NCBI RefSeq assembly: GCF_002288635.1
Contig: NZ_NRSW01000001.1
Location: 3,801,852 to 3,865,851, forward strand
DNA length: 64,000 nt
Direction of reading: 5' to 3'
Origin: Mucilaginibacter sp. MD40
GTDB lineage: Bacteria > Bacteroidota > Bacteroidia > Sphingobacteriales > Sphingobacteriaceae
The position numbers were made by a program, and so were the translations under genes. How positions within the stretch are numbered: the stretch's first letter is position 1; every line of letters begins with the position of its first letter. Positions 27,176 through 62,900 of the stretch are shown piece by piece. A model generated the notes under the pieces. The model did not search any database. It was not told where the DNA came from and worked only from the letters and a program-made list of their open reading frames with translations.

Positions 27176-27571
27176 GTGAAACGCGCAACGCTCATATTAT
27201 TAACAGCCATTTATCTGTTATCCAACCTTGGGTTAACGGTTAATAGCTATTATTGTTGCGGCGTATTATTGTCGACTTCCCTTTCCCCGGGACCTAAACA
27301 TCATGACGGTTGCAAAATGGCGTCCGATAACAACGGATGCTGTAAAACAAAGAAGCAATATTTCAAGCTTAAGGACCGGCATTGGGGCGAGCCCGGGTTT
27401 AATTTGAATGTAAAGCTGTTTCCAGCTTTAGATATGCTCAGCCCTTATGTTACCACTAACTCGTGGTTAAATAACCGCGGGCACCAGGTTATTTCTTATA
27501 ACAACCACCGGCGGCCCCCTGACTGGCTTAAAACATCCGTTTATATTTTCAATTGCACTTACCTGATCTGA
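27176..27571 (+). CDS. HYC_CC_PP-like Cys-rich secreted protein, copy 1
   Basis: 131 residues from a GTG start. Signal peptide (about 1-23), then YYCCG, a CC pair in NNGCCKTKKQYF, and a C-terminal RRPPDWL block ending in TYLI. This spacing (Cys near the mature N-terminus, a central CC, a late PP) matches small Bacteroidota secreted proteins often found near metal resistance genes; two more copies are at 57236 and 61795. The exact role is unknown. Copper or other soft-metal binding outside the membrane is an inference from the Cys/His content and neighbours. Confidence 0.65.
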   Translation: MKRATLILLTAIYLLSNLGLTVNSYYCCGVLLSTSLSPGPKHHDGCKMASDNNGCCKTKKQYFKLKDRHWGEPGFNLNVKLFPALDMLSPYVTTNSWLNNRGHQVISYNNHRRPPDWLKTSVYIFNCTYLI

Positions 27572-27811: not shown

Positions 27812-28399
27812 ATGAAAAAATTAAATAGTTTTTTGATACTGGCCGGACTTTTCCTTGCCATATCGCAGAATTCGTTTGCCCAAAAAGACAGCAGCGGGAT
27901 TTATAAAACTGCCACCGACTTTCAGCAAAAAAAATTGTCTTATGCTATAAACTACAAAACAGAAAAGCATAGGATCAATGACGATTTTTTATTTAGCGCA
28001 GGTAAAATAAAAGTCGTTCATGAGGGCAAGGCTTACTTCATGGACAAGAACAGTACCTACGGTTATAAAAGCACGACTGGTGAGGTTTTCAGATTTGTTG
28101 ACAATAAGGAATACAAGATTCTGAATCCCGAAGCTTCATTAATGCTATATGAGGTTCCAAATATCAACAAGGCAAGCAAAGGGCAATTTCGCACCTATCC
28201 GGTGTATTTCTTCAGCACCGATGCGTCTTCAATCCCGCAGGCTTTAACAAAAGAAAAACTCAAAGCGGCATTCCCAAACAATCATAAGTTTCACGACGCA
28301 TTGGACGAAAACTTCAAATCGGACGGTGAACTGGCGGCTTATGACAGCTTTCACAAAGTATATAAACTAAACCGGATTTTTAATAACAGTTTAAAATAA
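27812..28399 (+). CDS. Secreted hypothetical protein, duplicate A
   Basis: 195 residues with a signal peptide (about 1-23, NSFAQ). Nearly identical to the protein at 29079 over the first ~110 residues and the last ~50, differing most around 110-145. The conserved parts read YKTATDFQQKKLSYAINYKT and FPNNHKFHDALDENFKSD. No domain is recognised. The HMA-AraC regulator starts 4 nt after its stop, so they are co-transcribed. Possibly an envelope metal-stress protein; function unknown. Confidence 0.75.
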   Translation: MKKLNSFLILAGLFLAISQNSFAQKDSSGIYKTATDFQQKKLSYAINYKTEKHRINDDFLFSAGKIKVVHEGKAYFMDKNSTYGYKSTTGEVFRFVDNKEYKILNPEASLMLYEVPNINKASKGQFRTYPVYFFSTDASSIPQALTKEKLKAAFPNNHKFHDALDENFKSDGELAAYDSFHKVYKLNRIFNNSLK

Positions 28400-28403
28400 A
28401 AAG

Positions 28404-29018
28404 ATGAATGCGACTTATTTGCATATCAAAAATATGTGCTGCCAAAGATGTATTGAAATAATCAGGAGGCTGTCAAAAAGCGTTAAACTTTCGGTTATTT
28501 CAATTAAACTGGGTGAACTGGTTCTTAAGGGTAAAGTCAGCAGTGAAGACAAGGATGACTTTGAAAAAAAGATTAATCAAGAAGGTTTTTATCTTTCTGA
28601 AACCCACCAGGAAAAAGTTATCGGCCATCTCAAAACGCTGCTCCTTCAGTATCGGGATGAACTGATGAAAAATGAGAAGCCGATCAAGCTGTCAGAATTT
28701 ATAGTTGGCCATATGCAAATGAGTTTTTCCCATTTAAGCAGGATTTTTTCAAAATCGGAGGGGGTAACAATTGAGAGGTACTTGTTGCTGCTGCGCTTAG
28801 AGAAGGCGAAGGAGCTGCTGATTCAAAAGCAATTATCTGTTACGGAGGTTAGCTACAAGCTGGGTTATAACAGCCCGCAATCTTTTATAACACAGTTCAG
28901 GAAAGATGTCGGGAAAACACCTCATGAGTACCAGCTAAGCCCGTTGCCGCCGAGAAATAATATTGATGCGCTGACAAATCAATATATCAAACAACAAGAG
29001 CATCCAGGCGAACAATAG
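28404..29018 (+). CDS. HMA-like/AraC fusion regulator, copy 1
   Basis: 204 residues. Residues 4-70 look like a heavy-metal-associated (HMA) domain: YLHIKNMCCQRCIEIIRRL carries the NMxCxRC metal motif (C13 and C16, with an extra C12), and the spacing of strands and helices fits beta-alpha-beta. From about 105 it is an AraC-type HTH (FIVGHMQMSFSHLSRIFSKS and VTEVSYKLGYNSPQSFITQF, ending KTPHEYQ). A metal-binding fold directly joined to an AraC output suggests a metal-sensing activator. It lies between two near-identical secreted protein genes. A second copy is at 62337 in the copper island. Confidence 0.85.
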   Translation: MNATYLHIKNMCCQRCIEIIRRLSKSVKLSVISIKLGELVLKGKVSSEDKDDFEKKINQEGFYLSETHQEKVIGHLKTLLLQYRDELMKNEKPIKLSEFIVGHMQMSFSHLSRIFSKSEGVTIERYLLLLRLEKAKELLIQKQLSVTEVSYKLGYNSPQSFITQFRKDVGKTPHEYQLSPLPPRNNIDALTNQYIKQQEHPGEQ

Positions 29019-29078: not shown

Positions 29079-29669
29079 ATGAAAAAATTAAATTGTTTTT
29101 TGATACTGGCAGGAGGTTTCCTTGCCATATCGCAGAGTTCATTTGCCCAAAAAGACAGCAGCGGGATCTATAAGACCGCCGCCGATTTTCAGCAAAAAAA
29201 ATTGTCTTATGCTATTAATTACAAAACAGAAAAGCATAAGATCAATGACAATTTTTTATTTAGCGCAAGCAAAATAAAAGTAGTTCATGAGGGCAAGGCC
29301 TATTTCACGGACAAAAACAGCACCTACGGTTATAAAAGTACGACCGGTGAGGTTTTCAGATTTGTTGACGATAAGGAGTATAAGGTGCTTAATCCTGAAG
29401 GGCAATCCTTATTACTCTACGCTTTCTCAAAGATCTCCACCGTCAGCAAAGGAAACGTCAGGCATTATTCGATTTACTTTTTCAGTCCCGGTGCATCTTC
29501 GGCCTTGCAACCTCTAACAAAGAATAACCTGAAGGCAGCATTTCCCAACAATCATAAATTTCATGATACATTGGATGAAAACTTCAAAACGGATGATGAG
29601 CTGGCCGCTTATGACAGCTTTCATAAAACATATAAACTGATCCGGATTTTTGATAACAGCCTTAAATAA
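29079..29669 (+). CDS. Secreted hypothetical protein, duplicate B
   Basis: 196 residues with a signal peptide (about 1-23, SSFAQ). It is a recent duplicate of the gene at 27812. Even the leader just upstream (ATAATTAAA then AAGTAAAA before ATG) is shared, so the duplication unit included non-coding DNA. Most differences cluster at residues 110-145 (GQSLLLYAFSKISTVSKGN here). The function is unknown. It is the last gene before the GH13 hydrolase. Confidence 0.75.
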   Translation: MKKLNCFLILAGGFLAISQSSFAQKDSSGIYKTAADFQQKKLSYAINYKTEKHKINDNFLFSASKIKVVHEGKAYFTDKNSTYGYKSTTGEVFRFVDDKEYKVLNPEGQSLLLYAFSKISTVSKGNVRHYSIYFFSPGASSALQPLTKNNLKAAFPNNHKFHDTLDENFKTDDELAAYDSFHKTYKLIRIFDNSLK

Positions 29670-29798: not shown

Positions 29799-31487
29799 AT
29801 GAAATCCATAAATGATATAGACCTGTCACCCAAACCTGGAAAAAAGTACTGGGATAGCTGTCACCGCGAATGGCGGGAAGAGTTTATCTACTTCTTATTG
29901 GTTGACCGTTTTCATGACAACGAGAAAAGACAAAGCGCGGAATTTGAAGTTAGGCATTCCGGCTTTGGAGATGAAAAACAACTGGGTAAATCGTGCGGGG
30001 GCACTATTCGCGGCATCACAGATCATCTTGATTATATCAAAGAACTGGGTTGTACGGCAATATGGCTAAGCCCGGTTTTTAAAAATAATCCGGAATCCTA
30101 TCACGGCTATGCTATTGAAAATTACCTGGAAATAGATCCGCGTTTTGGCACCAAGGACGACATGGAAAAACTGGTCGAAACCGCTCATAGTTATGGCATG
30201 AGTGTTTTCCTGGATATCGTTTTACATCATAGCGGCAATAACTGGCGTTATCCGGATGGTCTCGAATATTTTTACTATAAAGGGTTCAGGTTTCCTTTCG
30301 GCGGATGGCGTTATGAAGATCAACCGTCACCGGCGGAACTGCGGGACCCGGAATTATATGGACGTAAAGGACAGATCCGGAATTTTGACAGTTACCCTGA
30401 AACAAGGGAAGGGGATTTTTATGGTTTAAAGGCATTCAAAAATGATGAGTCTTCCGAAGCCATTTATGTTCAGAAGATATTAGCTGATATTCACTGCTAT
30501 TGGATGAGAGAGCTGGATATCGATGGTTTCCGGCTGGATGCCGTAAAGCATATGGGCGAGTTATCCATCAGCCGCTTTTGCTCAGCCATACGGGAATATG
30601 CCTATGCGCTCGGCAAGGAAAATTTCTTTCTTTTTGGCGAGGTTGTAGGCGCAGATGAAATGTACAACCGCTATTGGGGGGCTAAGATCTTACCGACTTA
30701 CCATGATCAAAATATTTACTATGGACTAAACTCCGTATTGGATTTTCAGTTGTACTTCACTTTGGAAGGTGTGATCAAAGGCGCTGACTCGCCGGAAAAA
30801 CTGATCGACCGATATCAGCAACTCCAAAAAAGCGCGCTTGACAGAGGCGAATATGGTGAGTTTTTGGTAACCTTCCTGGATAACCATGACCAGGTTGGAG
30901 CTGAAATCAAGCACCGTTACGGCTATCATGCAGAACCCGCTCAAATTATTGCAGGGATTGCCTTCCTGCTTTGTGCCCTGGGCACGCCCTGTATTTACTA
31001 CGGCACGGAACAAGGTCTTGACGGACAAGGTAAAGGTGATAGCCATATCAGGGAATGTTTGTTCGATCCCGGCGATAAAACGACCAACCTTCTTAATCAG
31101 CATTCTTCCATTTACTTGGCCATAGCCGAACTGGCAAAATTCAGAAGCACAAGCAATGTGCTGAAGTTCGGCAGGATGTTCATGCGGGAAATCTCAAATG
31201 ACGGTATCAACTTTCATTTGCCGGATTGCAACAAATGCACACTGGCGTTTTCCAGGATCTTGTCCGAAGAGGAGATTGTATTCGTATTTAATTCCTCCGC
31301 CGAGGAAACAAAGGAGGAACACATCGTGGTAGACCGCGAGGTCAACCGCAAACGGCGATGGATGATACCGGTTTATGGCTATGAAAACAACGTGGAAATA
31401 CGGCATTCAACAGACCCATCCTACCCGGTGAGCTATATCAGGCTGGAATTGAAACCCATGCAGTTGGTTATACTTAAAAATTATTAA
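29799..31487 (+). CDS. GH13 alpha-amylase family glycoside hydrolase
   Basis: 562 residues without a signal peptide, so cytosolic. All three catalytic residues are visible: nucleophile Asp247 (DGFRLDAVKHM), acid/base Glu281 (FFLFGEVVGADE) and Asp364 (FLDNHDQ), plus GCTAIWLSPVFKN and VFLDIVLHHSG of the (beta/alpha)8 barrel and a C-terminal beta domain. It acts on alpha-glucosidic bonds, perhaps in stored glycogen or trehalose-like sugars. Its stop is 1 nt before the start of the V-ATPase E subunit gene, so it is translationally adjacent to that operon, which is odd for a glycosidase. Confidence 0.9.
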   Translation: MKSINDIDLSPKPGKKYWDSCHREWREEFIYFLLVDRFHDNEKRQSAEFEVRHSGFGDEKQLGKSCGGTIRGITDHLDYIKELGCTAIWLSPVFKNNPESYHGYAIENYLEIDPRFGTKDDMEKLVETAHSYGMSVFLDIVLHHSGNNWRYPDGLEYFYYKGFRFPFGGWRYEDQPSPAELRDPELYGRKGQIRNFDSYPETREGDFYGLKAFKNDESSEAIYVQKILADIHCYWMRELDIDGFRLDAVKHMGELSISRFCSAIREYAYALGKENFFLFGEVVGADEMYNRYWGAKILPTYHDQNIYYGLNSVLDFQLYFTLEGVIKGADSPEKLIDRYQQLQKSALDRGEYGEFLVTFLDNHDQVGAEIKHRYGYHAEPAQIIAGIAFLLCALGTPCIYYGTEQGLDGQGKGDSHIRECLFDPGDKTTNLLNQHSSIYLAIAELAKFRSTSNVLKFGRMFMREISNDGINFHLPDCNKCTLAFSRILSEEEIVFVFNSSAEETKEEHIVVDREVNRKRRWMIPVYGYENNVEIRHSTDPSYPVSYIRLELKPMQLVILKNY

Positions 31488-31488
31488 A

Positions 31489-32136
31489 ATGGAGACGAAT
31501 GATTACCTGAATGCAGACCTGAAGCCGCTTGTCGAAAAAGTCTATCAGGAAGGGGTTAAAAAGGCAAAGGATGAAGCGGAACAAATCATTGAAGCTGCAA
31601 AACGGCAGGCGGAAGAACTGCTTAAAAAAGCGGAGCAACAGATCGCCAGGCTGGAAGAACGGTCATTGGCTGAGACTAACCGGGTCAGTCAAAATTTAAA
31701 AAGCGAGCTGAAGGCTGTCGCCGGTCAAACCATTAGCGCCGTCAAAACGGAACTCGCTGCGGTCATCACCAAAAAGACAAGCGTCCGCGAGATCAATGAT
31801 GCCTTGGCGGATAAAGAATTTTTGCAAAAAATCATTTCCGATGTGCTTCGGAAGTGGGACCCGTCAGATGATCAGTTTCAATTTGAATTGCTTTTAAATA
31901 AAGATGATGAAGCGCGGCTGAAGGAATTTTTTGAGCAGCGGATCAAAAAAGAATTAAGCGCCGGGATCGACATTACAATTGACAATAAAATTAAAAGCGG
32001 CTTTAAGATCGGCGTAAAAAATGAAGATTACTATGTGGATTTTTCCGGCGGAGAGTTTGAGGAATTCTTCAAGGGGTATTTGCGTAAGAGCACATTGGAA
32101 TGGATTTACGGCACAAAAGAAAACGAACATGTCTGA
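31489..32136 (+). CDS. atpE: V-type ATP synthase subunit E (peripheral stalk)
   Basis: 215 residues. The N-terminal third (about 15-75) is a long charged, Ala-rich coiled coil (KKAKDEAEQIIEAAKRQAEE), and the C-terminal part is globular, as in V/A-ATPase subunit E. It forms the peripheral stalk holding the catalytic head. First gene of the V-ATPase set, it overlaps the next gene by 8 nt (ATGTCTGA). Confidence 0.88.
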   Translation: METNDYLNADLKPLVEKVYQEGVKKAKDEAEQIIEAAKRQAEELLKKAEQQIARLEERSLAETNRVSQNLKSELKAVAGQTISAVKTELAAVITKKTSVREINDALADKEFLQKIISDVLRKWDPSDDQFQFELLLNKDDEARLKEFFEQRIKKELSAGIDITIDNKIKSGFKIGVKNEDYYVDFSGGEFEEFFKGYLRKSTLEWIYGTKENEHV

Positions 32137-32959: not shown

Positions 32960-32960
32960 G

Positions 32961-36716: not shown

Positions 36717-36729
36717 ATAAACGGAAGCC

Positions 36730-38199: not shown

Positions 38200-38661
<462 letters not shown>

Positions 38662-38716: not shown

Positions 38717-40000
38717 ATGGTACAGGCCCTTATAAAATTTGCTTTACGAAACCGCTTTATCGTGCTACTGCTTGCAGGCGGCCTTTTTGCGTGGGGAATT
38801 TATGCCGTTACACAAAATCCCGTCGATGCCATACCGGATTTATCAGAAAACCAGGTGATCGTTTTTACCGAATGGATGGGACGCAGCCCGCAGTTGATAG
38901 AGGACCAGATCACCTATCCTTTGGTATCCAACTTACAGGGAATCCCAAATATCAAATCGGTCAGGGGTACATCCATGTTCGGCATGAGTTTCGTTTATGT
39001 CATCTTTGAAGATAACGTGGATATTTATTGGGCGCGCACCCGGGTATTGGAGCGGTTAAATTACGCGCAAAGGCTTTTGCCCCAGGGGATCACTCCCGCT
39101 TTAGGACCAGATGGAACAGGAGTAGGTCACGTCTTCTGGTATCATCTTGATGCCCCAAAAATGGATCTTGGAGAGCAGCGTGCGCTGCAGGATTGGTATA
39201 TCAAGTTCGCCTTGCAAACCGTGCCCGGCGTTTCAGAGGTGGCATCCTTCGGCGGTTTTGAAAAACAATACCAGATCATCCTGGACCCGGTAAAACTCCA
39301 GTTTTACAATATTCCCCTCATGACGGTGATGAATAAAGTACGGGCCAATAACAATGATGTCGGCGGCCGAAAGTTCGAAATGAGCGATATGGGCTATGTC
39401 ATCCGGGGCCTGGGATATATCAAGTCGAAGGAAGATGTGGAAAACATTGCTTTAGGCGAGAACAATGGGGTACCGGTCAGAATAAAAGATATCGGCAGTG
39501 TACAAATGGGCGGAGACCTGCGGCTTGGGATCGTAGACGAGAACGGTACAGGTGAAATCGTGGGAGGTATCGTGGTCATGCGGTATGGGCAAAGCGCAGA
39601 TAAGGTCATCAAGGCTGTAAAAGCCAAAATGAAGGAGGTGGAAAAAGGGCTTCCGGAAGGGGTCACGTTTAAAACTTCTTATGACCGGAGCGATCTGATA
39701 GAAGCTGCAATCAGCACCGTAACCGGAAAGTTAAAAGAAGAAATGATCGTCGTTTCCATCGTGGTGCTCATTTTTCTGTTCCATTGGCGCAGCGCGGTGA
39801 GCATTATTGTCCAGATCCCGATCACGCTTTCCATCAGTTTCATACTGCTGAATGCCTTTGGTCTGTCCTCCAATTTAATGTCCTTGACTGGTATTGCTAT
39901 CGCCATCGGTGTAATAGTAGATAACGGAATCATCATGTCCGAAAATGCCTATCGGAGGCTTTCCGAATGGCAGAATAGTGATCACCCAGAAAATATTTAA
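38717..40000 (+). CDS. cusA: CusA/CzcA-type RND metal efflux pump, N-terminal part
   Basis: 427 residues covering the first half of a heavy-metal RND pump: MVQALIKFALRNRFIVLLLA (TM1), FTEWMGRSPQLIEDQITYPL, the first periplasmic porter domain, then TM2-TM4 with SLTGIAIAIGVIVDNGIIMS (proton-relay Asp). It ends after ENAYRRLSEWQ, in the cytosolic loop before TM5. The second half begins 4 nt later in the +1 frame as a separate ATG frame. Together they make a full ~1,078-residue pump that exports Cu(I)/Ag(I) or divalent metals through the TolC-like channel encoded next. Confidence 0.9.
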   Translation: MVQALIKFALRNRFIVLLLAGGLFAWGIYAVTQNPVDAIPDLSENQVIVFTEWMGRSPQLIEDQITYPLVSNLQGIPNIKSVRGTSMFGMSFVYVIFEDNVDIYWARTRVLERLNYAQRLLPQGITPALGPDGTGVGHVFWYHLDAPKMDLGEQRALQDWYIKFALQTVPGVSEVASFGGFEKQYQIILDPVKLQFYNIPLMTVMNKVRANNNDVGGRKFEMSDMGYVIRGLGYIKSKEDVENIALGENNGVPVRIKDIGSVQMGGDLRLGIVDENGTGEIVGGIVVMRYGQSADKVIKAVKAKMKEVEKGLPEGVTFKTSYDRSDLIEAAISTVTGKLKEEMIVVSIVVLIFLFHWRSAVSIIVQIPITLSISFILLNAFGLSSNLMSLTGIAIAIGVIVDNGIIMSENAYRRLSEWQNSDHPENI

Positions 40001-40004
40001 CGTT

Positions 40005-41957
40005 ATGAAATTCATCATCAAATTAAAGGAATTTTTTAAGAAAAAGAAACCGTCTTACCGGGTGATCCCGGAAGATATCCGGATGAAGCTGGTGGAATCT
40101 TCGTGCATACAGGTGTCAAGAGGGGTGTTTTTTTCAACCGTGATCATTATCGTATCATTTATGCCGGTATTTCTTTTAACCGGACAGGAAGGGAAATTAT
40201 TCCACCCGCTGGCCTATACGAAAACGTTTATCCTGGCAGTAGATGCCATATTAGTGGTAACACTGGCCCCGGTGCTGATTTCCTTTTTCATGAAAGGAAA
40301 GTTTTTGCCTGAAAATGTTAACCCCGTAAACCGCGTGCTTGAACGGATTTATGAACCGATGATCAGGGCATGTATCAAAAGAAGAAAAATCACTATCGGG
40401 ATAAATATAATTGCGTTACTCATCAGCATTCCCCTGGTGATGAGTTTGGGCCGGGAATTTATGCCCCCGCTGGATGAAGGCACCCTTTTGTTCATGCCGG
40501 TCATGATGCCGGACGTATCCAATTCAGAAGCCAAAAGGTTATTGCAGGTGCAGGATAAGATCATCGCGTCTGTGCCGGAGGTAACGCATGTGATGGGAAA
40601 AGCGGGAAGGGCCTATACGGCTACCGATAACTCGCCAATCAGCATGATAGAAACCATCATCATGCTAAAGCCAAGGGATCAGTGGAGAAAAGGTTTTACA
40701 AAAGACAGTATCATTAATGAATTGAATAAAAAACTCCAGATTCCAGGCGTGATCAACGGATGGACCCAGCCGATCATCAACCGGATCAACATGCTTTCAA
40801 CGGGTATCCGAACAGACGTTGGAATAAAAGTGTTTGGTCAGAATTTGGATACGATCTATTCCTTTTCCCAAAAGGTAGAGAAGGCGCTGGAAGGAACACC
40901 CGGTATAAAAGACCTGTATGTCGAGCCTATCACCGGCGGGAAATATATAGATATCATTGTAAAACGGCAGGAAATTGGGCGCTATGGACTAAGTATAGAT
41001 GACGTAAATGCCGTAGTGGAAAGCGCCCTTGGCGGGATGCAGCTTACAACAACCATAGAGGGACGCCAGCGTTTTTCGGTAAACGCCCGTTTTGCTCAAA
41101 ATTTCAGAGATAATATTCAATCCCTAAAAAGATTGCAGGTGCAAACCATGAGCTACGGCCCGATCCCATTGGAAGCTGTGGCGAACGTGAAAATAAGCGA
41201 AGGGCCGCCGATGATCAACTCTGAGAATGCCATGCTGCGCGGAACCGTCCTTTTTAACGTAAGGGAAAGAGACCTGGCAAGCACAGTAGAAGAAGCGCAA
41301 AAGAAATTAAATTCAATGATCAGCAAAATGCCGAAAGGTTATTACCTGACCTGGAGCGGAAATTATGAGAACCTGATACGTGGCGAAAAAACCTTGAAAA
41401 TCATCATGCCGGTTGTAATAGTGGTCATTTTCATGTTCATGTATTTCGCATTCAATTCCATGCGGGAATCCTTTTTAAGCTTGATCACGATCCCATTTGC
41501 GCTTATTGGCGGGGCCTATATCGTTTACTTCTGGGGAGTGAATATTTCTATTGCCGTCGCCGTAGGATTCATTGCATTGTTCGGATTAGCCGTGGAGACG
41601 AATATTGTGATGGTTATTTACCTCAATGATGCCATGTTGCAATTAGTTGCGAAAAAGGGGAATTCGAGTGATACCATTACGAGGGATGAGCTGAAGGAAT
41701 ATGTGATAGCCGGGGCTGCTAAGAGGTTAAGGCCAAAGCTGATGACCGTTAGTGTATCCCTATTTGGCCTGGTGCCCATACTCTGGAGTACGGGCGTAGG
41801 AAGTGATGTGATGATACCTATCGTGTTGCCTATGATAGGCGGTGTACTGACTTCTTCAACGTTTATCCTGCTGGTAACGCCGCTGATCTTCCTGATGAAC
41901 AAGGAACACGAATTAAAAAAACACGGGAAAATAGAAGTAATGGAAACGCATCACTAA
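40005..41957 (+). CDS. cusA: CusA/CzcA-type RND metal efflux pump, C-terminal part
   Basis: The ATG at 40005 gives 650 residues; the frame is open back to 39945. After a basic leader (MKFIIKLKEFFKKKKPSYRV) it resumes the RND sequence at VESSCIQVSRGVFFSTVIII (TM5), the second porter domain, and TM helices with FGLAVETNIVMVIYL and AAKRLRPKLMTVSVS (relay Glu and Lys). The break lies exactly in the TM4-TM5 cytosolic loop, so two chains could assemble. Alternatively a single frameshift (real or in the assembly) has split one gene. Stop and start are 4 nt apart, which looks like a designed junction. Confidence 0.9.
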   Translation: MKFIIKLKEFFKKKKPSYRVIPEDIRMKLVESSCIQVSRGVFFSTVIIIVSFMPVFLLTGQEGKLFHPLAYTKTFILAVDAILVVTLAPVLISFFMKGKFLPENVNPVNRVLERIYEPMIRACIKRRKITIGINIIALLISIPLVMSLGREFMPPLDEGTLLFMPVMMPDVSNSEAKRLLQVQDKIIASVPEVTHVMGKAGRAYTATDNSPISMIETIIMLKPRDQWRKGFTKDSIINELNKKLQIPGVINGWTQPIINRINMLSTGIRTDVGIKVFGQNLDTIYSFSQKVEKALEGTPGIKDLYVEPITGGKYIDIIVKRQEIGRYGLSIDDVNAVVESALGGMQLTTTIEGRQRFSVNARFAQNFRDNIQSLKRLQVQTMSYGPIPLEAVANVKISEGPPMINSENAMLRGTVLFNVRERDLASTVEEAQKKLNSMISKMPKGYYLTWSGNYENLIRGEKTLKIIMPVVIVVIFMFMYFAFNSMRESFLSLITIPFALIGGAYIVYFWGVNISIAVAVGFIALFGLAVETNIVMVIYLNDAMLQLVAKKGNSSDTITRDELKEYVIAGAAKRLRPKLMTVSVSLFGLVPILWSTGVGSDVMIPIVLPMIGGVLTSSTFILLVTPLIFLMNKEHELKKHGKIEVMETHH

Positions 41958-42000
41958 ATAATGAAAGTGTTGCAAGATGTTTAATCTTAAAAAAATCAGT

Positions 42001-43311
42001 ATGATGAATCAAAGCCGCAAAATAAAACCAATTCCCTGTCCGGGAGTCTGCCTCCGGGGTATAATAGGTATTGCCACAATACTTCTGATCCTTTCAGCGG
42101 ATGCAGTTAAGGCACAGCAGATGATGAGTATAAAAGGCATTCTTGATTCTATTGAGTCGGGTAACCCATCAATGAAGATGTACGATGCCGATATACGATC
42201 GATGAATGAAACAGCTAAAGGCGCAAAAAGCTGGATGGCGCCCGAATTAAGCACAGGTTTTTTTATGACGCCTTACAATCCTGCGCTTTGGAAAAAAAGC
42301 GGTGACATCAACGGTATGGGTCAATATTCGATAGCCGGTCAGCAGATGATCCCTAATAAAAGCAGGCTGGATGCAGAATCCAAATATATGAACGCCATGT
42401 CGACCGTTGAAGCACAAAAAAAAGGCGCCACACTAAATGACCTTTATGCACAGGCTAAATCTGCTTATTATGCCTGGATGATCCTTGAAAAGAAATTGGC
42501 CATTCTCAATCAGAACGAAAAGGTATTGAATTTTATGATAGGCAATGCGGAAACAAGGTATAAAAATGGATTAGAAAAGATCAATGCTTACTACAAAGCG
42601 AAAGCAGCCCTGGGCTCGTTGCAAAGCATGCGCCTGATGTTACAGAATGATGTAAAGCAAAAACGCATTTTGCTCAATACGTTAATGAATGCAAAAGACA
42701 AGATGAAGGATTATATGATCGATACGACCTATTTGGTAAGGGATTATTCATCTTATATCATCGACAGTTCCCTGTTTGTCAATTCAAGAAGTGATATCAA
42801 AGCGATAGAAAAAGATATTCAGCTAACTTATCTGAAACGGGAGCTGGAAAGGACAAAGTTAAAACCGGAATTCGGTATCCGTTATGAGCATATGTTCGGC
42901 TTTGGCGGAGCATCGAACCTATATACCTTGATGGGCATGGTGCGTATTCCCATCGCGCCCTGGAGCGCTAAAATGAATAAGGCAAATATAGAAGGGCTAA
43001 AATGGCAGGCCATTTCGCTGGAGGCCCAAAAACAGATGGTTATTAACGAAAGTACGGGTATGGCACACAGTGCGCTGACGGAAATTGAAACAAAGAAAAA
43101 GCAAATCGAATTGTTTGAAAAAAATATCATTCCCGCTTTACGCAGAAATTATCAAACGATGCAATTGGGATATGAGCAAAATACAGAGGAATTGTTTGAA
43201 TTGTATGATGCCTGGGAAACGCTGAATATGACGCAGCTGGATTACCTGGATCAACTGCAGCAATTGCTGGCCATGCAGGTCGAATTGGATCGGACGCTGC
43301 AAATACGTTAG
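42001..43311 (+). CDS. TolC-family outer-membrane efflux channel (CusC-like)
   Basis: About 436 residues from the ATG at 42001; an upstream in-frame ATG at 41977 is also possible. Signal peptide ends near AVKAQQ. The body is a long helical repeat of the OEP/TolC type (SIESGNPSMKMYDADIRSMN and ALGSLQSMRLMLQNDVKQ). It forms the exit channel for the RND pump encoded upstream. The gap to the first adaptor gene is 22 nt, so the four-gene set is one operon. Confidence 0.9.
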   Translation: MMNQSRKIKPIPCPGVCLRGIIGIATILLILSADAVKAQQMMSIKGILDSIESGNPSMKMYDADIRSMNETAKGAKSWMAPELSTGFFMTPYNPALWKKSGDINGMGQYSIAGQQMIPNKSRLDAESKYMNAMSTVEAQKKGATLNDLYAQAKSAYYAWMILEKKLAILNQNEKVLNFMIGNAETRYKNGLEKINAYYKAKAALGSLQSMRLMLQNDVKQKRILLNTLMNAKDKMKDYMIDTTYLVRDYSSYIIDSSLFVNSRSDIKAIEKDIQLTYLKRELERTKLKPEFGIRYEHMFGFGGASNLYTLMGMVRIPIAPWSAKMNKANIEGLKWQAISLEAQKQMVINESTGMAHSALTEIETKKKQIELFEKNIIPALRRNYQTMQLGYEQNTEELFELYDAWETLNMTQLDYLDQLQQLLAMQVELDRTLQIR

Positions 43312-43333
43312 AAACAGGTCCTTAATAATAACG

Positions 43334-44578
43334 ATGATGAAAAAAAAGAAAATAACGCTGATCATATTATCGGTCCTGGTCATATTAACTTCAGCCGCAT
43401 GGATTTACGTTAAGTACATGCGTCAAAAAAGTCATCCCTTGAAACCTGACGCTATGGCCAACATGGATATGGGAGATAAGGGACAGATGGATATGGATAT
43501 GCCGATGCCCGGGGAGGAAACGAATAACACTGCTATAGATACTAAACTTGGCTTTTTGCTGAAACCTACGAATGAATATGTATTGTCAAAAATTCCCACT
43601 ACGTCCATTCAAAATAAAACACAGGATATAGCGATAAATGCGTTTGGCCGCGTAGCCTATGATACCAGGCAGGTAGGATCTATTTCGGCGCGCATAACGG
43701 GGAGGATCGTAAAGCTTTATGTACGTTACCGGTTCCAAAAGGTAAACAAGGGGCAAAAGATCATGGATATATACAGTCCTGAAATAGTTACCGACGAACA
43801 AAATCTGCTGTATCTCTTAAAAAGCGATCCTGAAAACGCGCCTTTCATAACAGCGGCCAAAGAAAAACTATTGCTATTGGGTATGCGTGAAGAGCAATTA
43901 GCACAGGTCATCAGGACTCAAAAAGCGGACTTCACCATTTCGGTTTACAGCCCTTACAGCGGCCATATTCATGAGGCAAGCTCCCAGGGAACCGTTGAAA
44001 TGCCCTCAGCCCAACCCGGAGAGATGAAAAACATTGCCCTGATCACAGAAGAGCTTCCGCTTAAAGAAGGGATGTACGTGCAACAGGGGCAACCAGTCTT
44101 CAGTGTGTTCGATCCGGGTAAAGCATGGGTGATCCTGAATTTTTTTGCTGATAAACAAGCCATTATAAAAAAAGGAAGCCCGGTCCGCATTGTTCCTGAA
44201 ACTGCCCCGGGGAAGAGTTTCCAGGCAACTATAGATTATATCGAGCCTTTTTATCGCAAAGACAGCAAAACGGTTACAGCACGTGTGTACTTTGATAACA
44301 CCAAACTCAAAATTCCTGTCGGCAGCCAGGTTTCGGCTGTCATCACCAGTAAAAACCCGAATACAAACTGGCTTCCTTCAGACGCGCTGCTTTCCCTGGG
44401 GATGGACAAAGTGGTATTTGTCAAATACCTTACGGGCTTCAAAGCCCACAGGGTGATCACCGGTTTAACAAATGATAAATCAATTCAAATCCTTTCCGGT
44501 CTTTCTGTGAAGGATACGGTAGCAGCCAATGCGCAGTACCTGATGGACAGTGAAAGCTTTATAAAAGTAAACGAATAG
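43334..44578 (+). CDS. cusB: RND periplasmic adaptor (CusB-like), Met-rich N-terminus
   Basis: 414 residues with an N-terminal membrane or signal segment (about 7-27). A Met/Asp stretch (NMDMGDKGQMDMDMPMPG) follows, typical of Cu(I)/Ag(I) adaptors. It has the membrane-fusion domains, with ISARITGRIVKLYVRYRFQK and KGQKIMDIYSPEIVTDEQNL. It bridges pump and channel. A second adaptor gene follows after 2 nt. Confidence 0.9.
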   Translation: MMKKKKITLIILSVLVILTSAAWIYVKYMRQKSHPLKPDAMANMDMGDKGQMDMDMPMPGEETNNTAIDTKLGFLLKPTNEYVLSKIPTTSIQNKTQDIAINAFGRVAYDTRQVGSISARITGRIVKLYVRYRFQKVNKGQKIMDIYSPEIVTDEQNLLYLLKSDPENAPFITAAKEKLLLLGMREEQLAQVIRTQKADFTISVYSPYSGHIHEASSQGTVEMPSAQPGEMKNIALITEELPLKEGMYVQQGQPVFSVFDPGKAWVILNFFADKQAIIKKGSPVRIVPETAPGKSFQATIDYIEPFYRKDSKTVTARVYFDNTKLKIPVGSQVSAVITSKNPNTNWLPSDALLSLGMDKVVFVKYLTGFKAHRVITGLTNDKSIQILSGLSVKDTVAANAQYLMDSESFIKVNE

Positions 44579-44580
44579 TT

Positions 44581-45876
44581 ATGAAAAACAAAAACGCCAA
44601 TATAGGATTAGGTTACGGTACAACCGGCCCGCATGGGGTGAAGCGCAACCGGCTGCCTGTAACCCGCTCGCTACGCATTCCCGGTTTGTTTTTATTTTTT
44701 TTGATGGCATTGCTATCCTGTAAAAACAAAGCGGAGAAGCAAGTTACGCATACTTCAGCGGCCAAATTTTATTATACCTGCTCTATGCACCCCCAGGTCA
44801 TGCAGCACAAACCGGGAAATTGTCCGATCTGTGGCATGAAACTGATCGAAGTGAGCGAAACCAATACGGCGAAGGCCGATGAGATCCGGCTAACACAACA
44901 ACAAATACAGCTGGGTAATATCCTGGTGGACACCATAAACGATAAGCGCATTGGCGATAAGGTCATATTTACCGGAACGCTGAATTTCAACTTGTATAAA
45001 ACGGCGTCGGTAAGTGCAAGAGTGGCCGGAAGAATAGAAAAATTGTACTTCAAAAATATAGGGGATTATGTGCGTAAAGGTGATCCATTATTTGACATCT
45101 ATAGCGAGGAATTGAATAATGCACGCCAGGAATATATATACACACTTCAAAAAAAACAAACCCTTGATAATTCATTAATTGACTATGACCGTCTGGTACA
45201 GAGCGCCAGGAATAAGCTGCTCTTATGGGGATTAACGGAAAAACAGATTCAGGATTTAGGTAACAATAAACAGGTTACCAGACTAACCTCTTTTTACAGT
45301 ACAGCGTCAGGATTTATTACAGAATTAGGTGTAAAGGAAGGCGACTATGTCATGGAGGGGGGCAAGGTTGTCAACCTTGCCGATTTATCTACGCTTTGGG
45401 CGGAGGCACAGGTTTACGCTTCCCAGATGAATGATATTGATAAAAACGGGACTGTAACGGTCCAAATACCCGATATGCCGGGTAAAGAATTTAAGGGCCA
45501 CATTGAATTTGTTAACCCTGAGATCAATCCTGATACCCGCATTGATCTGGTACGGGTGGTTATCCCCAATACGGACCGTCAGTTAAAACCGGGTATGCCC
45601 GCCTATTTGATTTTTAGGGCACCGGTACACAAAGCTTTCTCCTTACCAATAGATGCGGTGTTGCGAGATGGCACGGTGTCGGTCGTTTGGGTTCAGACAG
45701 GAAAGAATACCTTCAAAAATAAAATGGTGGAAACCGGGCTGGAAACTGAAAATGATATCGAAATAAAATCGGGCCTGCAGAAAGGCGATATCGTCGTCAT
45801 TAACGGTGCCTATTTATTAAACAGCGAGTACAAATTCAAAAAGGGTTCAAGCCCGATGGGCGGCATGAAGATGTAG
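44581..45876 (+). CDS. cusB: RND periplasmic adaptor lipoprotein with heavy-metal-binding domain
   Basis: 431 residues. A long basic leader precedes a lipoprotein-type signal (FFLMALLSC). Residues about 60-92 form a zinc-ribbon-like heavy-metal-binding domain (YTCSMHPQVMQ and GNCPICGMKLIEV), then adaptor domains (VSARVAGRIEKLYFKNIGDY, FDIYSEELNNARQEYIY). The metal domain may hand Cu(I) to the pump. Two different adaptors in one operon suggest a mixed adaptor ring. Confidence 0.9.
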   Translation: MKNKNANIGLGYGTTGPHGVKRNRLPVTRSLRIPGLFLFFLMALLSCKNKAEKQVTHTSAAKFYYTCSMHPQVMQHKPGNCPICGMKLIEVSETNTAKADEIRLTQQQIQLGNILVDTINDKRIGDKVIFTGTLNFNLYKTASVSARVAGRIEKLYFKNIGDYVRKGDPLFDIYSEELNNARQEYIYTLQKKQTLDNSLIDYDRLVQSARNKLLLWGLTEKQIQDLGNNKQVTRLTSFYSTASGFITELGVKEGDYVMEGGKVVNLADLSTLWAEAQVYASQMNDIDKNGTVTVQIPDMPGKEFKGHIEFVNPEINPDTRIDLVRVVIPNTDRQLKPGMPAYLIFRAPVHKAFSLPIDAVLRDGTVSVVWVQTGKNTFKNKMVETGLETENDIEIKSGLQKGDIVVINGAYLLNSEYKFKKGSSPMGGMKM

Positions 45877-46057: not shown

Positions 46058-48100
46058 TTAATTTTTCACCTTTAACAACGCGGCATTGATCGCAACCACA
46101 ACAGTGCTGACGGTCATCAATACAGCCCCTGCGGCAGGGCTTAATACAATGCCCTGGTTATAAAGCACACCGGCAGCCAACGGCAAGGCAACGACATTGT
46201 ACCCGGTTGCCCAAACCAGGTTCTGGATCATCTTGCGATACGTTGCTTTTCCGAATAAAATTAAACCAACAATATCTTTCGGATTGCTGTTCACCAGAAC
46301 AATGCCTGCGGTTTCCGCAGCGATATCGCTGCCCGACCCAACGGCAATGCCGATATCGGCCTGTGCCAATGCAGGCGCATCGTTGACGCCGTCCCCGGTC
46401 ATCGCTACGAATTCGCCCTTTTTCTGTAATGCTTTTATTTCTTTCAATTTCTGATCAGGCAATACTTCGGCGATAAAACTATCCATGCCCAAAGTCTTGC
46501 TTACGCTTGCCGCTACTTTACTGTTGTCCCCGGTAAGCAATATGGATTTAATCTTTTCCTGTTTTAAAGTTTTGATCGCTTCTGCCGATTCAGGCCGTAT
46601 TTTGTCGGACAAAGCAATGTATCCGGCCAATTTTTTATCAATGATGACAAATACAACTGTTTCTGTATCATCAGCGGTAAAACCCTCAGGAATGGTTATC
46701 TTATTTTCCTTTAAATAGCCGGGGCTGACAACCAATATTTTTTTACCTTCTACCGTTGCTTCCACACCTTTGCCTGTAATGGCATTAAAATTTTCCGTTG
46801 CCGGTACTTTGATAGCCAGGTCTTTTACTTTTTGCAGAATGCCTGTCGCGATCGGATGTTCTGATTTTTGTTCCAATGCGGACGCTAAACGAAGGATTTC
46901 ATTTTCCTTTAGCTCTTTATCAAGGGAAATTATTTTTGAAACCTCAAACTTTCCTACAGTTAATGTGCCCGTCTTATCAAATACAACCGTTGTGATCTTT
47001 CTTGAATTCTCAAATGCGTTCCTATTTTTGATCAGTAAGCCATTCTTTGCGGACAGGGCTGTTGATTTGGCTACTACCAGAGGGACAGCTAAACCCAAAG
47101 CGTGAGGGCAGCAGATCACAATTACCGTAACCATTCTTTCCATAGCGAAGGCTAAGGGCTGGCCCGTCAGATACCAATATAAGAATGTGGCTATACCACT
47201 GCACAAAGCAATAATGGTTAACCATCTGGCGGCTGTATCTGCCAGCAATTGTGTTTTTGATTTTGATTTTTGTGCATCATCCACCAGCTTCACTACCTGC
47301 GAGAGGTAGGAATCTTTTGCGGCATGGGATACCGTAACTTTAAAAGAGCCGCTTCCGTTGATGGAGCCGGCGATCACTTTGTCCCCCTTTACTTTCTTTA
47401 CCGGTTTTGACTCTCCGGTAAGCATACTTTCGTTCAGATAACTTTCCCCTTCGAGTATGATCCCATCTGCAGCAACCTTTTCGCCCGGTTTTACCAGGAT
47501 GATATCATTTTCTTTTAATGTGTCCGTCTTGACATCATGGATCATATCGGGCATCACCATGTGGGCGTCTGATGGCATCAATTGTACCAATAACTCCAGT
47601 TCTTTGGACGCCCCTGCAATAGATTTCATTTCGATCCAATGCCCTAATAACATGATCCCGATCAGGGTTGTCAGTTCCCAAAAGAAATCCATACCCTTTA
47701 ACCCAAATACGATGGCTACGCTGTAGATGTAGGCAACTGTTATAGCGAAGCCGATCAGGAACATCATACCAGGGTTCTTTGCTTTTATTTCCCCGATCCA
47801 TCCCGTTAAAAAAGGCCAGCCCCCATAAAAAAATACCACGGTTGACAGCGCAAACAATAGATAGGAAGAACCTGCAAATTGCCAGTCAACACCAATGAAA
47901 CGCTGTATCATTGCCGATAGCAGCATGATCGGTAAAGTTAGTGCCAGCACCACAAAAAACCGCTTCCTAAAGTCGGCGATCATCATGGAATGATCATGCC
48001 CTGCCATACCCATTGAGGGATTGGAGCCATGGTGCATGGTGCTATGGTCCATTTTTGAGTGATCCGTTGCCGGCGATTCAGTGTGATGTTGATGTTCCAT
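46058..48100 (-). CDS. copB: CopB-type P1B ATPase (copper export, CPH motif)
   Basis: 680 residues. The N-terminus is His/Met-rich (MEHQHHTESPATDHSKMDHS) instead of an HMA domain, and the membrane metal motif is CPH (VICCPHALGLAVPL), both typical of CopB. Other marks are MLTGESKPV, VVFDKTGTLTVG, SEHPIATGI and TGDGVNDAPALAQADIG. It exports copper (Cu+ or Cu2+) or silver from the cytosol using ATP. It is convergent with the RND operon and 28 nt downstream of an MFS gene on the same strand. Confidence 0.95.
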   Translation of the reverse strand: MEHQHHTESPATDHSKMDHSTMHHGSNPSMGMAGHDHSMMIADFRKRFFVVLALTLPIMLLSAMIQRFIGVDWQFAGSSYLLFALSTVVFFYGGWPFLTGWIGEIKAKNPGMMFLIGFAITVAYIYSVAIVFGLKGMDFFWELTTLIGIMLLGHWIEMKSIAGASKELELLVQLMPSDAHMVMPDMIHDVKTDTLKENDIILVKPGEKVAADGIILEGESYLNESMLTGESKPVKKVKGDKVIAGSINGSGSFKVTVSHAAKDSYLSQVVKLVDDAQKSKSKTQLLADTAARWLTIIALCSGIATFLYWYLTGQPLAFAMERMVTVIVICCPHALGLAVPLVVAKSTALSAKNGLLIKNRNAFENSRKITTVVFDKTGTLTVGKFEVSKIISLDKELKENEILRLASALEQKSEHPIATGILQKVKDLAIKVPATENFNAITGKGVEATVEGKKILVVSPGYLKENKITIPEGFTADDTETVVFVIIDKKLAGYIALSDKIRPESAEAIKTLKQEKIKSILLTGDNSKVAASVSKTLGMDSFIAEVLPDQKLKEIKALQKKGEFVAMTGDGVNDAPALAQADIGIAVGSGSDIAAETAGIVLVNSNPKDIVGLILFGKATYRKMIQNLVWATGYNVVALPLAAGVLYNQGIVLSPAAGAVLMTVSTVVVAINAALLKVKN

Positions 48101-57653: not shown

Positions 57654-57696
57654 CAAACTTAAAAATTAACGCGGCGGCAGATTTATATAATTCCGT
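57654..57696 (-). promoter_or_regulatory. Promoter with shared copper-gene architecture, copy 1
   Basis: On the minus strand, ACGGAAT (57696-57690) is followed 39 nt later (start to start) by TTTGTATCCTAA (57657-57646), within TAAGTTTG (57661-57654), a full -7 consensus match. The CopA promoter at 59161-59211 has the same two words at the same spacing, plus TnTAAAnnTG between them. Confidence 0.65.
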
Positions 57697-57725
57697 CATT
57701 TTTTTATATTTTGACGTGAAAGTTT

Positions 57726-58976: not shown

Positions 58977-59160
58977 TGCGGATAAAATTAGGTGCCGGCG
59001 TAAAACGCGTGCCCCTAAATTAAGCAAGTTTAAATAGATAATAACAATGGGTCTGAAATAACCCTTGCTTTAAGATTCTCTTATCGCCAGGATCCTTACG
59101 GGTGATTTCTGCTGCCAGTTCCTGTTTCGGGACCACTTGGCGGTATTTTATAAAAGTTTA

Positions 59161-59211
59161 ACGGAATCCTGTAAAGATGCGGCTGAGCGTTAGGCTAACT
59201 TTGTATCCTAA
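59161..59211 (+). promoter_or_regulatory. CopA promoter with shared copper-gene architecture, copy 2
   Basis: ACGGAAT (59161-59167) and TTTGTATCCTAA (59200-59211) are 39 nt apart, exactly as in the minus-strand promoter at 57646-57696. TAACTTTG (59196-59203) is a perfect TAnnTTTG -7 element. The ATG follows at 59223. Confidence 0.65.
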
Positions 59212-59222
59212 ACAGAGAAAGA

Positions 59223-61457
59223 ATGTCACCTGCAACCATATACACCCAGACTTTTCCGGTTACCGGCATGACTTGCGCCGGCTGCGCATCAAGCGTTGAA
59301 TCGATGATCGGCGCCCAAAAAGGTGTTGAAAAAGCTGAAGTTAATTTTGCCACCCAGTCCGTAAAGGTAGCTTACCACCCGGATCTCATCCGGCCGGAAG
59401 GCTTACAGCGATCCGTACAGTCGGTTGGTTACGACCTGATCATTGACACGGAAAATGGAAAAGAAAAAGGTGAACAGGCACAGCTGGCCCACTACCGTGA
59501 GCTGAAGAAAAATATCATTTGGGCCGCTGTCCTTACCCTGCCGGTTGTCATGATCGGGATGTTTTTGATGGACATTCCTTATGCCAATTATATCATGCTG
59601 GTGCTGACCGCCCCTGTGCTGTTCATCGCGGGCAGGAATTTTTTTACCGGTGCCTGGAAACAGGCACGGCACGGCAGGGCAAACATGGATACGCTGGTGG
59701 CGATGAGTACCGGGATCGCTTTTTTCTTCAGCGTGTTCAATACCGTCTATCCGGAGTTCTGGCACCGGCAGGGCTTACATCCGCACGTTTATTACGAGGC
59801 GGCATCGGTGGTGATCGTATTTATCATGCTGGGAAAATTGCTGGAAGAGCGGGCGAAATCCAACACCTCTTCCGCTATCAAAAAGTTGATCGGCCTACAG
59901 CCGAAAACCGTATTGCTCATAACGCCCCAGGGAGAAAAAATCACGCCTGTTGAGGAGGTGAAGATCGGCGACCTGCTGTTGGTTCGTCCGGGCGAAAAAA
60001 TTCCGGTGGATGGCATCGTAACGCAAGGCGGCTCCTACGTGGATGAGAGCATGATCAGCGGCGAGCCTGTGGCCGTAGAAAAAAAGAAGGGCGACAACAT
60101 TTTTGCCGGAACGATCAACCAGAAAGGCAGTTTTCAATTTCAAGCCGAGAAGGTCGGCGGTGAAACCCTGTTGGGTCAGATCATCCGCCTGGTAGAGGAA
60201 GCGCAGGGATCGAAAGCACCCGTTCAGAAACTGGTCGATAAAATTGCCGGTGTATTTGTCCCGGTGGTGCTGCTGATCGCGCTGGCGACTTTAGGCATCT
60301 GGCTGTTGCTCGGCGGCCCGCAGGCGCTGACACATGGACTTTTAGCCATGGTGACCGTTCTGGTCATTGCCTGTCCCTGCGCACTGGGGCTGGCCACACC
60401 TACCGCCGTCATGGTCGGTATCGGAAAAGGAGCTGAGAATGGCATCCTGATCAAGGATGCCGAAGCGCTGGAATTGGGATACAAGGTCAACGCGGTCATC
60501 TTTGATAAGACCGGAACGATCACCGAGGGTAAACCTGCGGTCACCGATATCGTCTGGGCCAATCAGGCCGCAGGCGGGGAACAGGCATTATCGGCGATAC
60601 TGTTGGCACTGGAACAGCAGTCAGAACATCCCTTAGCGGCCGCTATCGTCAGCTACCTGAAAGAAAGGGATATACAAAGCGTGGAATCGGACTATTTCCA
60701 CAGCCTGACCGGCCGGGGTGTCGAGATCCTGTTTAACGGCCAGCCCTATTATGCCGGTAACCTTAAACTGGTCGAAAGCAGTAAGACGCCACTTCCGGGT
60801 GAACTCGCTTTTGCGGCAGCCCAGCTTTCACAGGCCGGAAAAACCGTGATCTATTTTGCCTCACACCTTTCTGTATTGGCTATAGTGGCTTTGCAGGACC
60901 GCGTCAAGCATAATTCGGCAAAAGCCATTTCAGCGCTAAAGACCAGCGGTATCGAGGTCTATATGCTGACCGGTGACCAGGCGGTCACGGCGGCCCATAT
61001 TGGCCGGGAAGCCGGGATCAGTCATATCATTGCCGATGCGCTGCCCGCTGACAAAGCCACTTTTGTTAAGACCTTGCAAAGCCGGGGAAATATTGTAGCT
61101 ATGGTTGGGGACGGCATCAATGATAGCCAGGCGCTGGCGCGGGCAGACCTCTCCATCGCCATGGGTCACGGCTCGGATATCGCCATGGACGTGGCTAAGA
61201 TCACGCTGGTATCATCGGACCTGCTTCAACTGCCTAAAGCCCTTAAACTGTCCCGGCTGACTGTAAGAACGATCCGGCAAAACCTGTTCTGGGCTTTCAT
61301 CTATAACCTGATCGGCATACCGCTGGCTGCCGGTATCCTATACCCGGTGAATGGATTTTTACTAAACCCGATGATCGCCGGGGCGGCCATGGCGCTAAGC
61401 TCGGTGTCAGTCGTCAGCAACAGCCTGCGGCTTAAATATTCAAAAATTACTTTTTAA
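59223..61457 (+). CDS. copA: CopA-type Cu(I) P1B ATPase
   Basis: 744 residues with one N-terminal HMA domain ([18 protein letters not shown]), the CPC transport motif ([15 protein letters not shown]), [30 protein letters not shown] and [16 protein letters not shown]. It exports Cu(I) from the cytosol. A CopZ-like chaperone follows after 14 nt. It differs from the CopB pump at 46058 in motif and N-terminus, so the island has both P1B-1 and P1B-3 pumps. Confidence 0.97.
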
Positions 61458-61471
61458 TTAAAAACAGAAAA

Positions 61472-61684
61472 ATGGAAACTTTAAAATTCAAGACCACCAT
61501 CAAATGCGGTGGCTGCATAGCAACGGTTACCCCCGTCCTCGATCATTTAAACGGGGTAGAAAAATGGGAAGTGGATACCGTAAACCCCGATAAGATACTC
61601 ACGATAAAGGCAACTCCTGATTTGGAGGCAAAGGAGGTGATCGCCGCATTGGCAGCCAGGGGATACCATGCGGAATCCATATAA
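61472..61684 (+). CDS. CopZ-like copper chaperone (HMA domain)
   Basis: 70 residues, a single HMA domain. The metal motif is IKCGGCIATV (CGGC), then a typical beta-alpha-beta-beta-alpha-beta order (GVEKWEVDTV, AKEVIAALAARGYHAE). It delivers Cu(I) to CopA. It ends before a hairpin at 61701-61730, so copA and this gene form a unit. Confidence 0.92.
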   Translation: METLKFKTTIKCGGCIATVTPVLDHLNGVEKWEVDTVNPDKILTIKATPDLEAKEVIAALAARGYHAESI

Positions 61685-61700
61685 ATAGACCTATTCCGGT

Positions 61701-61730
61701 AAACCCTTGAAGCAAAGGCTTCAGGGGTTT
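61701..61730 (+). terminator. Terminator-like hairpin after the chaperone gene
   Basis: Arms AAACCCTTGAAGC (61701-61713) and GCTTCAGGGGTTT (61718-61730) pair at 12 of 13 positions, followed by ATTTGATTAT. The T-tract is weak. Confidence 0.6.
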
Positions 61731-61794
61731 ATTTGATTATCCGGAAAATACACTAAATTTAAACAATTGTAACATTTTGATGTACTATTAGTTA

Positions 61795-62268: not shown

Positions 62269-62336
62269 TTCAAGCTTTGCCGCCTTCTGCGGCCTGAAGA
62301 ATTATTGCCTTCACTTTCTTTTAGCTTGAATAAAAC

Positions 62337-62900
62337 ATGACATTATATATTAAAAATATGGTTTGCGACCGCTGCATTATGGTCGTTAAACAACAACTGG
62401 AAAACTTAGGGTTCCGGGTCGATTCCATTGCGCTGGGTAGCGCCGTTGTTCAGCCAGAAGCGGATGCCAACCAATTAAGCGCCATTTCTTCCGCATTAAA
62501 ACTGCTCGGCTTTGAGCTGATCGATAATGAAAAGGACCGTGTGGTACAACGCATTAAGGACCTGATCATTGAAAAGGTACATCACAGCGACCTATCGGAC
62601 AGCCACCTCAGCTTTTCGGACTACCTGTCTGATCAGCTGCATAAGGATTATACTTATCTCAGCCGGATGTTCTCAGAGTCGGAAGATACCACTATTGAAA
62701 AATTCATTATTCAGCAAAAGATAGAAAAGGTCAAAGAACTGCTGGAGTACGGCGAACTCAATATGAACGAGATCGCCTGGAAGATGGGCTATAGCAGTAG
62801 CGCTCATCTGTCCGCGCAGTTCAAAACGATAACCGGGTTAACGCCAAGCCAGTTCAAAGCATCAGGGCACAGGCAGCGTAAAGCCATTGACAAAATTTAA
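62337..62900 (+). CDS. HMA-like/AraC fusion regulator, copy 2
   Basis: 187 residues. An HMA-like N-terminus (MTLYIKNMVCDRCIMVVKQQ; metal Cys10 and Cys13) leads to an AraC HTH from about 88 (LSDQLHKDYTYLSRMFSESE and MNEIAWKMGYSSSAHLSAQF, ending GLTPSQFK). It shares the layout and length of the copy at 28404. It sits in the copper island between a His-rich secreted protein and a Met-rich outer-membrane-type gene, so it is the most likely copper-responsive activator here. Sensing copper through CxxC is an inference. Confidence 0.87.
   Translation: MTLYIKNMVCDRCIMVVKQQLENLGFRVDSIALGSAVVQPEADANQLSAISSALKLLGFELIDNEKDRVVQRIKDLIIEKVHHSDLSDSHLSFSDYLSDQLHKDYTYLSRMFSESEDTTIEKFIIQQKIEKVKELLEYGELNMNEIAWKMGYSSSAHLSAQFKTITGLTPSQFKASGHRQRKAIDKI

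Follow-up and report, generated by a model that had tools for sequence, protein, structure and literature searches.

A putative copper-responsive AraC-type regulator with a built-in HMA domain, and its divergent copy near Cus-type genes in Mucilaginibacter sp. MD40

The window analysed in this paper is the whole stretch of 64,000 nucleotides from Mucilaginibacter sp. MD40, and the gene under study, which we call copy 1, is an intact reading frame among its copper-resistance genes (Table 1). The initial annotation had drawn this frame exactly as we find it. Its label of 'copy 1' is also apt, as the window contains a second copy of the regulator, and a third, which brings the genome to three, lies outside the window at C1:4115684-4116244.

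The surroundings of copy 1 comprise a HYC_CC_PP gene (27176), a DUF gene (27812), copy 1 itself (28404), a second DUF gene (29079), and a run of efflux genes from cusA to cusB (38717-45876). This is the gene set of L127, the locus of a related regulator, where we find the regulator, HYC_CC_PP, DUF, split cusA, cusC, cusB and again cusB. Since copy 1 starts only 4 bp past the stop of the DUF gene that precedes it, the two genes are, judging from this spacing, probably co-transcribed in one operon. The two DUF proteins flank copy 1 as a tandem duplication, and the genome encodes a further DUF paralog at 4085809, some 11 kb away from the second of its Cys-rich/DUF3347 operons.

Table 1. Genes, protein domains and predicted regulatory sites in the window, with positions counted from its first nucleotide.
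Feature	Position	Strand	Evidence and remarks
HYC_CC_PP family small secreted Cys protein	27176..27571	+	NCBIfam NF047658, E 7.3e-11, above cut-off; also beside the L127 regulator
Secreted DUF protein 1, upstream gene	27812..28399	+	81% identical to 29079-29669; homolog precedes split cusA in L127
HMA-AraC regulator copy 1, 204 aa	28404..29018	+	ATG at 28404, stop ends at 29018, frame intact
Predicted HMA domain of copy 1, residues 3-66	28410..28601	+	beta-alpha-beta-beta-alpha-beta; family profile, model, Foldseek
Putative metal-site motif MCCQRC (MxCxxC, residues 11-16)	28434..28451	+	M11, C13 and C16 invariant
AraC-type double HTH of copy 1, residues 103-177	28710..28934	+	Pfam HTH_18; AraC-family DNA-binding domains in PDB
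Secreted DUF protein 2, downstream gene	29079..29669	+	TAAGTTTG box 43 bp before start
Cus-type RND efflux genes: cusA (two genes), cusC-like, two cusB-like	38717..45876	+	Pfam ACR_tran, OEP, HlyD_D23, HMBD; likewise in L127
Copper-type P1B ATPase without N-terminal HMA	46058..48100	-	TIGR01511, E 2.6e-176
Predicted family operator before the operon starting at 57646	57679..57717	-	22.3 bits
Predicted family operator before copA, two direct half-sites	59140..59178	+	33.5 bits
Bacteroidota-type -7 box TAACTTTG of copA	59196..59203	+	17 bp past the operator
CopA Cu+ ATPase with HMA domain	59223..61457	+	TIGR01511, E 5e-178
CopZ-like small HMA-type protein, 70 aa, CGGC	61472..61684	+	counterpart in the locus of the third copy
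HMA-AraC regulator copy 2, 187 aa, MVCDRC	62337..62900	+	29% identical to copy 1

Several features of the window concern its neighbouring genes rather than the regulator. The cusA gene is split in the middle of the RND protein into 38717-40000 and 39945-41957, which cover positions 2-418 and 421-1019 of ACR_tran. The same split recurs at six loci (L057, L069, L070, L073, L127 and L132), and it is therefore a real gene fission and not an error. Between the cluster of copy 1 and cusA lies a block (29799-38661) holding a GH13-type amylase gene and a V-type ATPase operon; because nothing of the kind intervenes in L127, this block looks inserted, or else the cluster has been rearranged. A secreted 5-fold beta-flower protein (Bflower_2) is encoded in the copper region at 50444-50914, and another directly downstream of the regulator in L128 (9316-9777), which makes it a candidate copper-defence protein. 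At the left edge of the window we read, by eye, MobC-like mobilisation and TOPRIM/primase genes (540-2079), which suggests that a mobile element adjoins the metal-resistance region.

The DNA-binding part of copy 1 is, on its sequence, unambiguous. The initial annotation had assigned the remainder of the protein, beyond the N-terminal domain, to an AraC HTH, and Pfam HTH_18 matches residues 103-177 with E 1.3e-20 and 73.9 bits, against a cut-off of 33.6. That is, copy 1 has what defines the AraC/XylS family, two HTH motifs in tandem over some 100 residues that match HTH_18/HTH_AraC. All of its DNA-binding matches in Pfam and NCBIfam are AraC-type, and a MerR-type HTH with its C-terminal metal loop is absent.

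The N-terminal part includes MNATYLHIKNMCCQRCIEII and contains M11-C12-C13-Q14-R15-C16, that is, an MxCxxC motif with one additional cysteine. Pfam HMA (PF00403) does not match copy 1 at all, its match to copy 2 stays below the gathering threshold (E 0.15, 12.9 bits against a cut-off of 24.8), and a single-sequence search of NCBIfam does not identify the domain in copy 1. Because Pfam misses the domain in copy 1, we tested the HMA reading through the family. A profile was built from the N-terminal domains of 66 family relatives and run against the PDB, where it matches ATP7B (2ew9, E 3e-10), a Bacillus Cu-ATPase (1p6t, E 8.9e-10) and CopZ (1k0v, E 5.7e-7; 2qif, E 6.7e-7), with ZntA and MerP among the weaker matches. 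When the same members are scanned singly, 45 of 66 match Pfam HMA at E up to 1, the best at 4e-6. Residues M11, C13, C16, G37 and G61 are invariant in an alignment of 68 members. The conservation of MxCxxC among our named loci is in part a matter of construction, since these were fetched with patterns over that region; members recovered by unbiased genome searches likewise carry the motif.

Predicted structure agrees with this homology. Full-length copy 1, modelled by AlphaFold2 with 68 relatives, has a mean pLDDT of 92.4 and a pTM of 0.77, with strands at residues 3-9, 31-35 and 38-42 and helices at 14-26 and 47-59. The domain modelled alone, which is the check that had been proposed for the N-terminal fold, adds a strand at 63-65, so that the order becomes strand, helix, strand, strand, helix, strand. 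In a Foldseek search with this isolated domain, CopZ 2qif comes out on top (E 1.3e-3), and the matches that follow are mostly copper chaperones or Cu-ATPase domains; the whole model matches AraT, MarA, GadX and the DNA-binding domain of AraC in the PDB. Thus, by homology and by model, the N-terminus of copy 1 is an HMA domain with a predicted ferredoxin-like fold and MxCxxC in its first loop, and the HMA fold that the initial annotation had read around NMCCQRC is borne out by the family profile, the model and the top PDB match alike.

The family to which copy 1 belongs is present in 181 of 396 sampled Bacteroidota genomes and in 95 of 172 genera, which agrees with the earlier view of a widespread class; the joining of HMA domain and AraC HTH in one protein, also proposed earlier, is likewise borne out. 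No NCBIfam model fits the family above its cut-off, and in plasmid records its members are named merely as AraC-family or helix-turn-helix regulators. In the tree, copy 1 sits on a long branch, with 25-38% identity to all relatives, within a divergent clade of four members (support 100/97) that share the motif MCCxRC, the CC being common to all. All four are placed among copper-resistance genes: besides L127 and the window, at L128 and L129 the regulator is accompanied by genes for a multicopper oxidase, a four-helix Cys-rich protein or a DUF3347 protein. A separate case is the second member in Niastella vici (L098:11582-12154), which reads NMATLRC and has lost the first cysteine of the metal site. 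It is a natural test case for metal dependence.

A link of the regulator to copper had been proposed on the sequence of this one locus, and the family bears it out. Comparing a phylum-wide sample of 29 members with 30 control loci of other HTH_18 (AraC) regulators from related genomes, we find a copper-type P1B ATPase within 1.5 kb of 22 members and of no control (Fisher p 1.7e-10). At copy 2, the order from 59223 to 62900 is copA, the CopZ-like HMA protein, a Cys-rich protein and the regulator. At the third copy this order is repeated around a second copA; a multicopper-oxidase-type gene lies immediately downstream, and small Cys-rich proteins are encoded beyond it. Of 65 named loci with full flanks, 18 lack every copper marker within 8 kb, and some of the family members at these loci may have another role. 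The members at L133 (position 9741) and L134 (position 9708) are solitary regulators next to biotin-synthesis genes, and within 10 kb of them there is no copper gene; each is itself preceded by a weak operator-like site, a hint that they regulate themselves or exert control in trans.

Counts of words in the promoters reveal that AATCCTGT and ATCCTGTA are enriched. From inspection of the enriched words we derive a predicted operator of two direct half-sites 21 bp apart, a 39-bp element followed, after about 17 bp, by the Bacteroidota promoter box TAnnTTTG; such a position would suit an activator more than a repressor. If an operator is called wherever the matrix score exceeds 12 bits, it is found in 31 of the 54 copA promoters beside a regulator, with 0.2 expected in shuffles, versus none of 27 promoters of copA-like genes in genomes without the regulator (p 7e-8), neither the shuffles nor these genomes having been used to train the matrix. 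The operator also occurs before genes of the other P1B type (6/7), HYC_CC_PP genes (3/5) and a Cys-rich gene (5/5), and in 15 of 618 other upstream regions of the same loci. Among those genes behind these 15 extra sites that were scanned, we find two for ArsP_1 permeases and two for HMA proteins, all outside the training set and likely to be metal genes. The permeases are encoded at L048:6794-7936 and L101:8678-9964 (and L097:8678-9964), one of them with an HMA domain of its own; on this evidence the regulon seems to extend to the ArsP_1 transporter type.

A matrix trained without Sphingobacteriaceae recovers 14 of 17 held-out copA promoters, a count that includes a slight leak since the training sites were picked with the full matrix. 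In the window, the held-out matrix gives 15.7 bits to the operator before copA, the top site in all 64 kb, and 10.2 bits to that before the 57646 operon, the top site on the minus strand; this operon encodes a Cys-rich protein and a DUF3347 protein, with a multicopper oxidase further on. Genome-wide, where our counts rest on an IUPAC pattern, the bare pattern has exactly four matches in 4.3 Mb. Three of them precede copA1, copA2 and the second Cys-rich/DUF3347 operon, and the fourth has no copper context and a low matrix score. The protein that would bind the operator is assigned by co-occurrence. For the family, then, we find the two marks of a copper regulator, a genomic association with copper export and an operator common to those genes; for copy 1 we find the association alone.

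It is important to separate what is predicted for the family from what is predicted for copy 1. The initial annotation had copy 1 acting at the promoters near 27.8 and 29.0 kb, and this part is not supported as far as the canonical operator is concerned, which is found near neither. The operators in the window precede copA (59140) and the 57646 operon and point to copy 2, not copy 1; most likely they serve copies 2 and 3. Near copy 1 no canonical operator is found, either with the matrix at all offsets or at its fixed distance from TAnnTTTG boxes. The first HTH of copy 1 is close to the family pattern (LSR.FS). Its second recognition helix deviates by S162 to I and T169 to V, at positions about 96% conserved in the family, and because of this departure its DNA target probably differs from the canonical operator. 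Before 29079, TCAAACAA and GCGAACAA lie 21 bp apart as weak half-sites at the TAAGTTTG box, and they resemble half-sites before the gene that follows the regulator in L127. As a self-repeat this pair is not above chance (p 0.69), nor is any other 21-bp self-repeat in the promoters around copy 1, in a test of low power by which the copA site itself has p 0.09. Since no canonical operator lies near and the repeat before 29079 does not exceed chance, we infer, rather than observe, a local role of copy 1 at the Cus-type cluster.

In our preferred reading, which we consider likely, the Bacteroidota family consists of AraC-type activators that respond to copper as one-component systems by means of an integral HMA sensor, and copy 1 is one of its divergent members; for the family as a whole, metal binding, DNA binding and activation are what we infer. 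In this mechanism, cytoplasmic Cu(I) would bind MxCxxC of the HMA domain and perhaps bridge two such domains into a dimer. CopZ can form copper-bridged assemblies, and a tetranuclear Cu(I) cluster appears in the title of 2qif. The dimer would then occupy the two direct half-sites, 21 bp or two turns apart and hence on one face of the DNA, beside the promoter box, and would recruit RNA polymerase. The canonical operator would let copies 2 and 3 activate copA and the DUF3347/multicopper-oxidase operons, and copy 1 would act likewise on the local Cus-type cluster through a different DNA sequence. More tentatively, and with some doubt on our part, HMA-AraC proteins could form a major undescribed class of cytoplasmic copper sensors in Bacteroidota, in which HMA domains paired by Cu(I) set two AraC domains on a 21-bp direct repeat and the CC clade is a second branch, wired separately and devoted to copper defence of the Cus type and of the envelope.

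The absence of a site near copy 1 leads to a different account, in which copy 1 responds to copper but acts as a repressor, or else uses the canonical operators of copies 2 and 3 in front of copA and the 57646 operon, as their competitor or in addition to them, and not a site at its own cluster. The restriction of canonical operators in the window to these two places would be expected on this account, as would a first HTH near LSR.FS. We nevertheless regard it as unlikely, given that the second recognition helix departs at strongly conserved positions, that the clade of copy 1 adjoins different gene sets, and that an operator just upstream of the promoter box better suits an activator.

The identity of the metal must also be weighed, as Zn/Cd ATPases and mercury proteins too make use of HMA domains with CxxC. 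ZntA and MerP do appear among the weaker profile matches, and copy 1 has a third cysteine in its motif; but the top matches by profile and by fold are Cu(I) domains, and the genes nearby encode CopA-type ATPases, multicopper oxidases and Cus-type proteins. A soft metal other than Cu(I) (Ag+, Zn2+, Cd2+ or Hg2+) as the signal for copy 1 is thus quite improbable, with the qualification that Ag+ is not separable from copper because Cus-type pumps export silver too. We give very little credence to the idea that copy 1 is a paralog in decay, or turned to another use, whose response to metal is gone. Its long branch, its low identity to all relatives and the lack of an operator of its own would be consistent with such a loss, and the NMATLRC protein is a natural instance of a member without the first cysteine; copy 1, however, keeps an intact frame, the invariant residues and a confident model, and its four-member clade keeps both the CC motif and the copper setting.

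The preferred reading, that of a copper-responsive activator with an HMA sensor, combines parts that are each known. Like the AraC/XylS activators AraC, MarA, SoxS and GadX, the family has a C-terminal double HTH, and its predicted half-sites, direct and 21 bp apart before the promoter, have an AraC-like geometry; unlike them, its sensor is a 66-residue HMA domain of the metallochaperone type and not a sugar-binding or other classical domain. With CopZ/Atx1 chaperones and the HMA domains of Cu+ ATPases it shares the fold and the place of MxCxxC in the first loop, whereas its HMA domain is fused to a DNA-binding domain and its motif is NM[VC]CxRC instead of the usual GMTCxxC. Its likely role, cytoplasmic copper control of copA-type genes, is also that of CueR (MerR), CsoR and CopY, proteins whose folds and metal sites are unrelated to those of the family. 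The two-component systems CusRS and CopRS control Cus-type efflux genes, as copy 1 would on our reading, but in copy 1 sensor and DNA-binding domain are on one polypeptide.

A genome study of Bizionia argentinensis, another member of the Bacteroidota, found MerR and CopY relatives without copper sites and fell back on ArsR/SmtB candidates, and its survey of copper genes names no HMA-AraC regulator (PMC11213822). We found no description of an HMA-AraC or AraC copper sensor in the full-text literature, a weak absence since subscription papers mostly, and preprints, fall outside that corpus. The parts are known, and their combination as a copper sensor is without description in the literature and family libraries we searched. 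If true, a copper-chaperone fold as ligand domain would be a new type of sensor for the very large AraC family, as far as these sources show. The HMA-AraC family occurs in nearly half of the Bacteroidota genomes sampled, and, with its predicted operator and regulon, it makes the question of cytoplasmic copper sensing in Bacteroidota, including the gut Bacteroides, a testable one.
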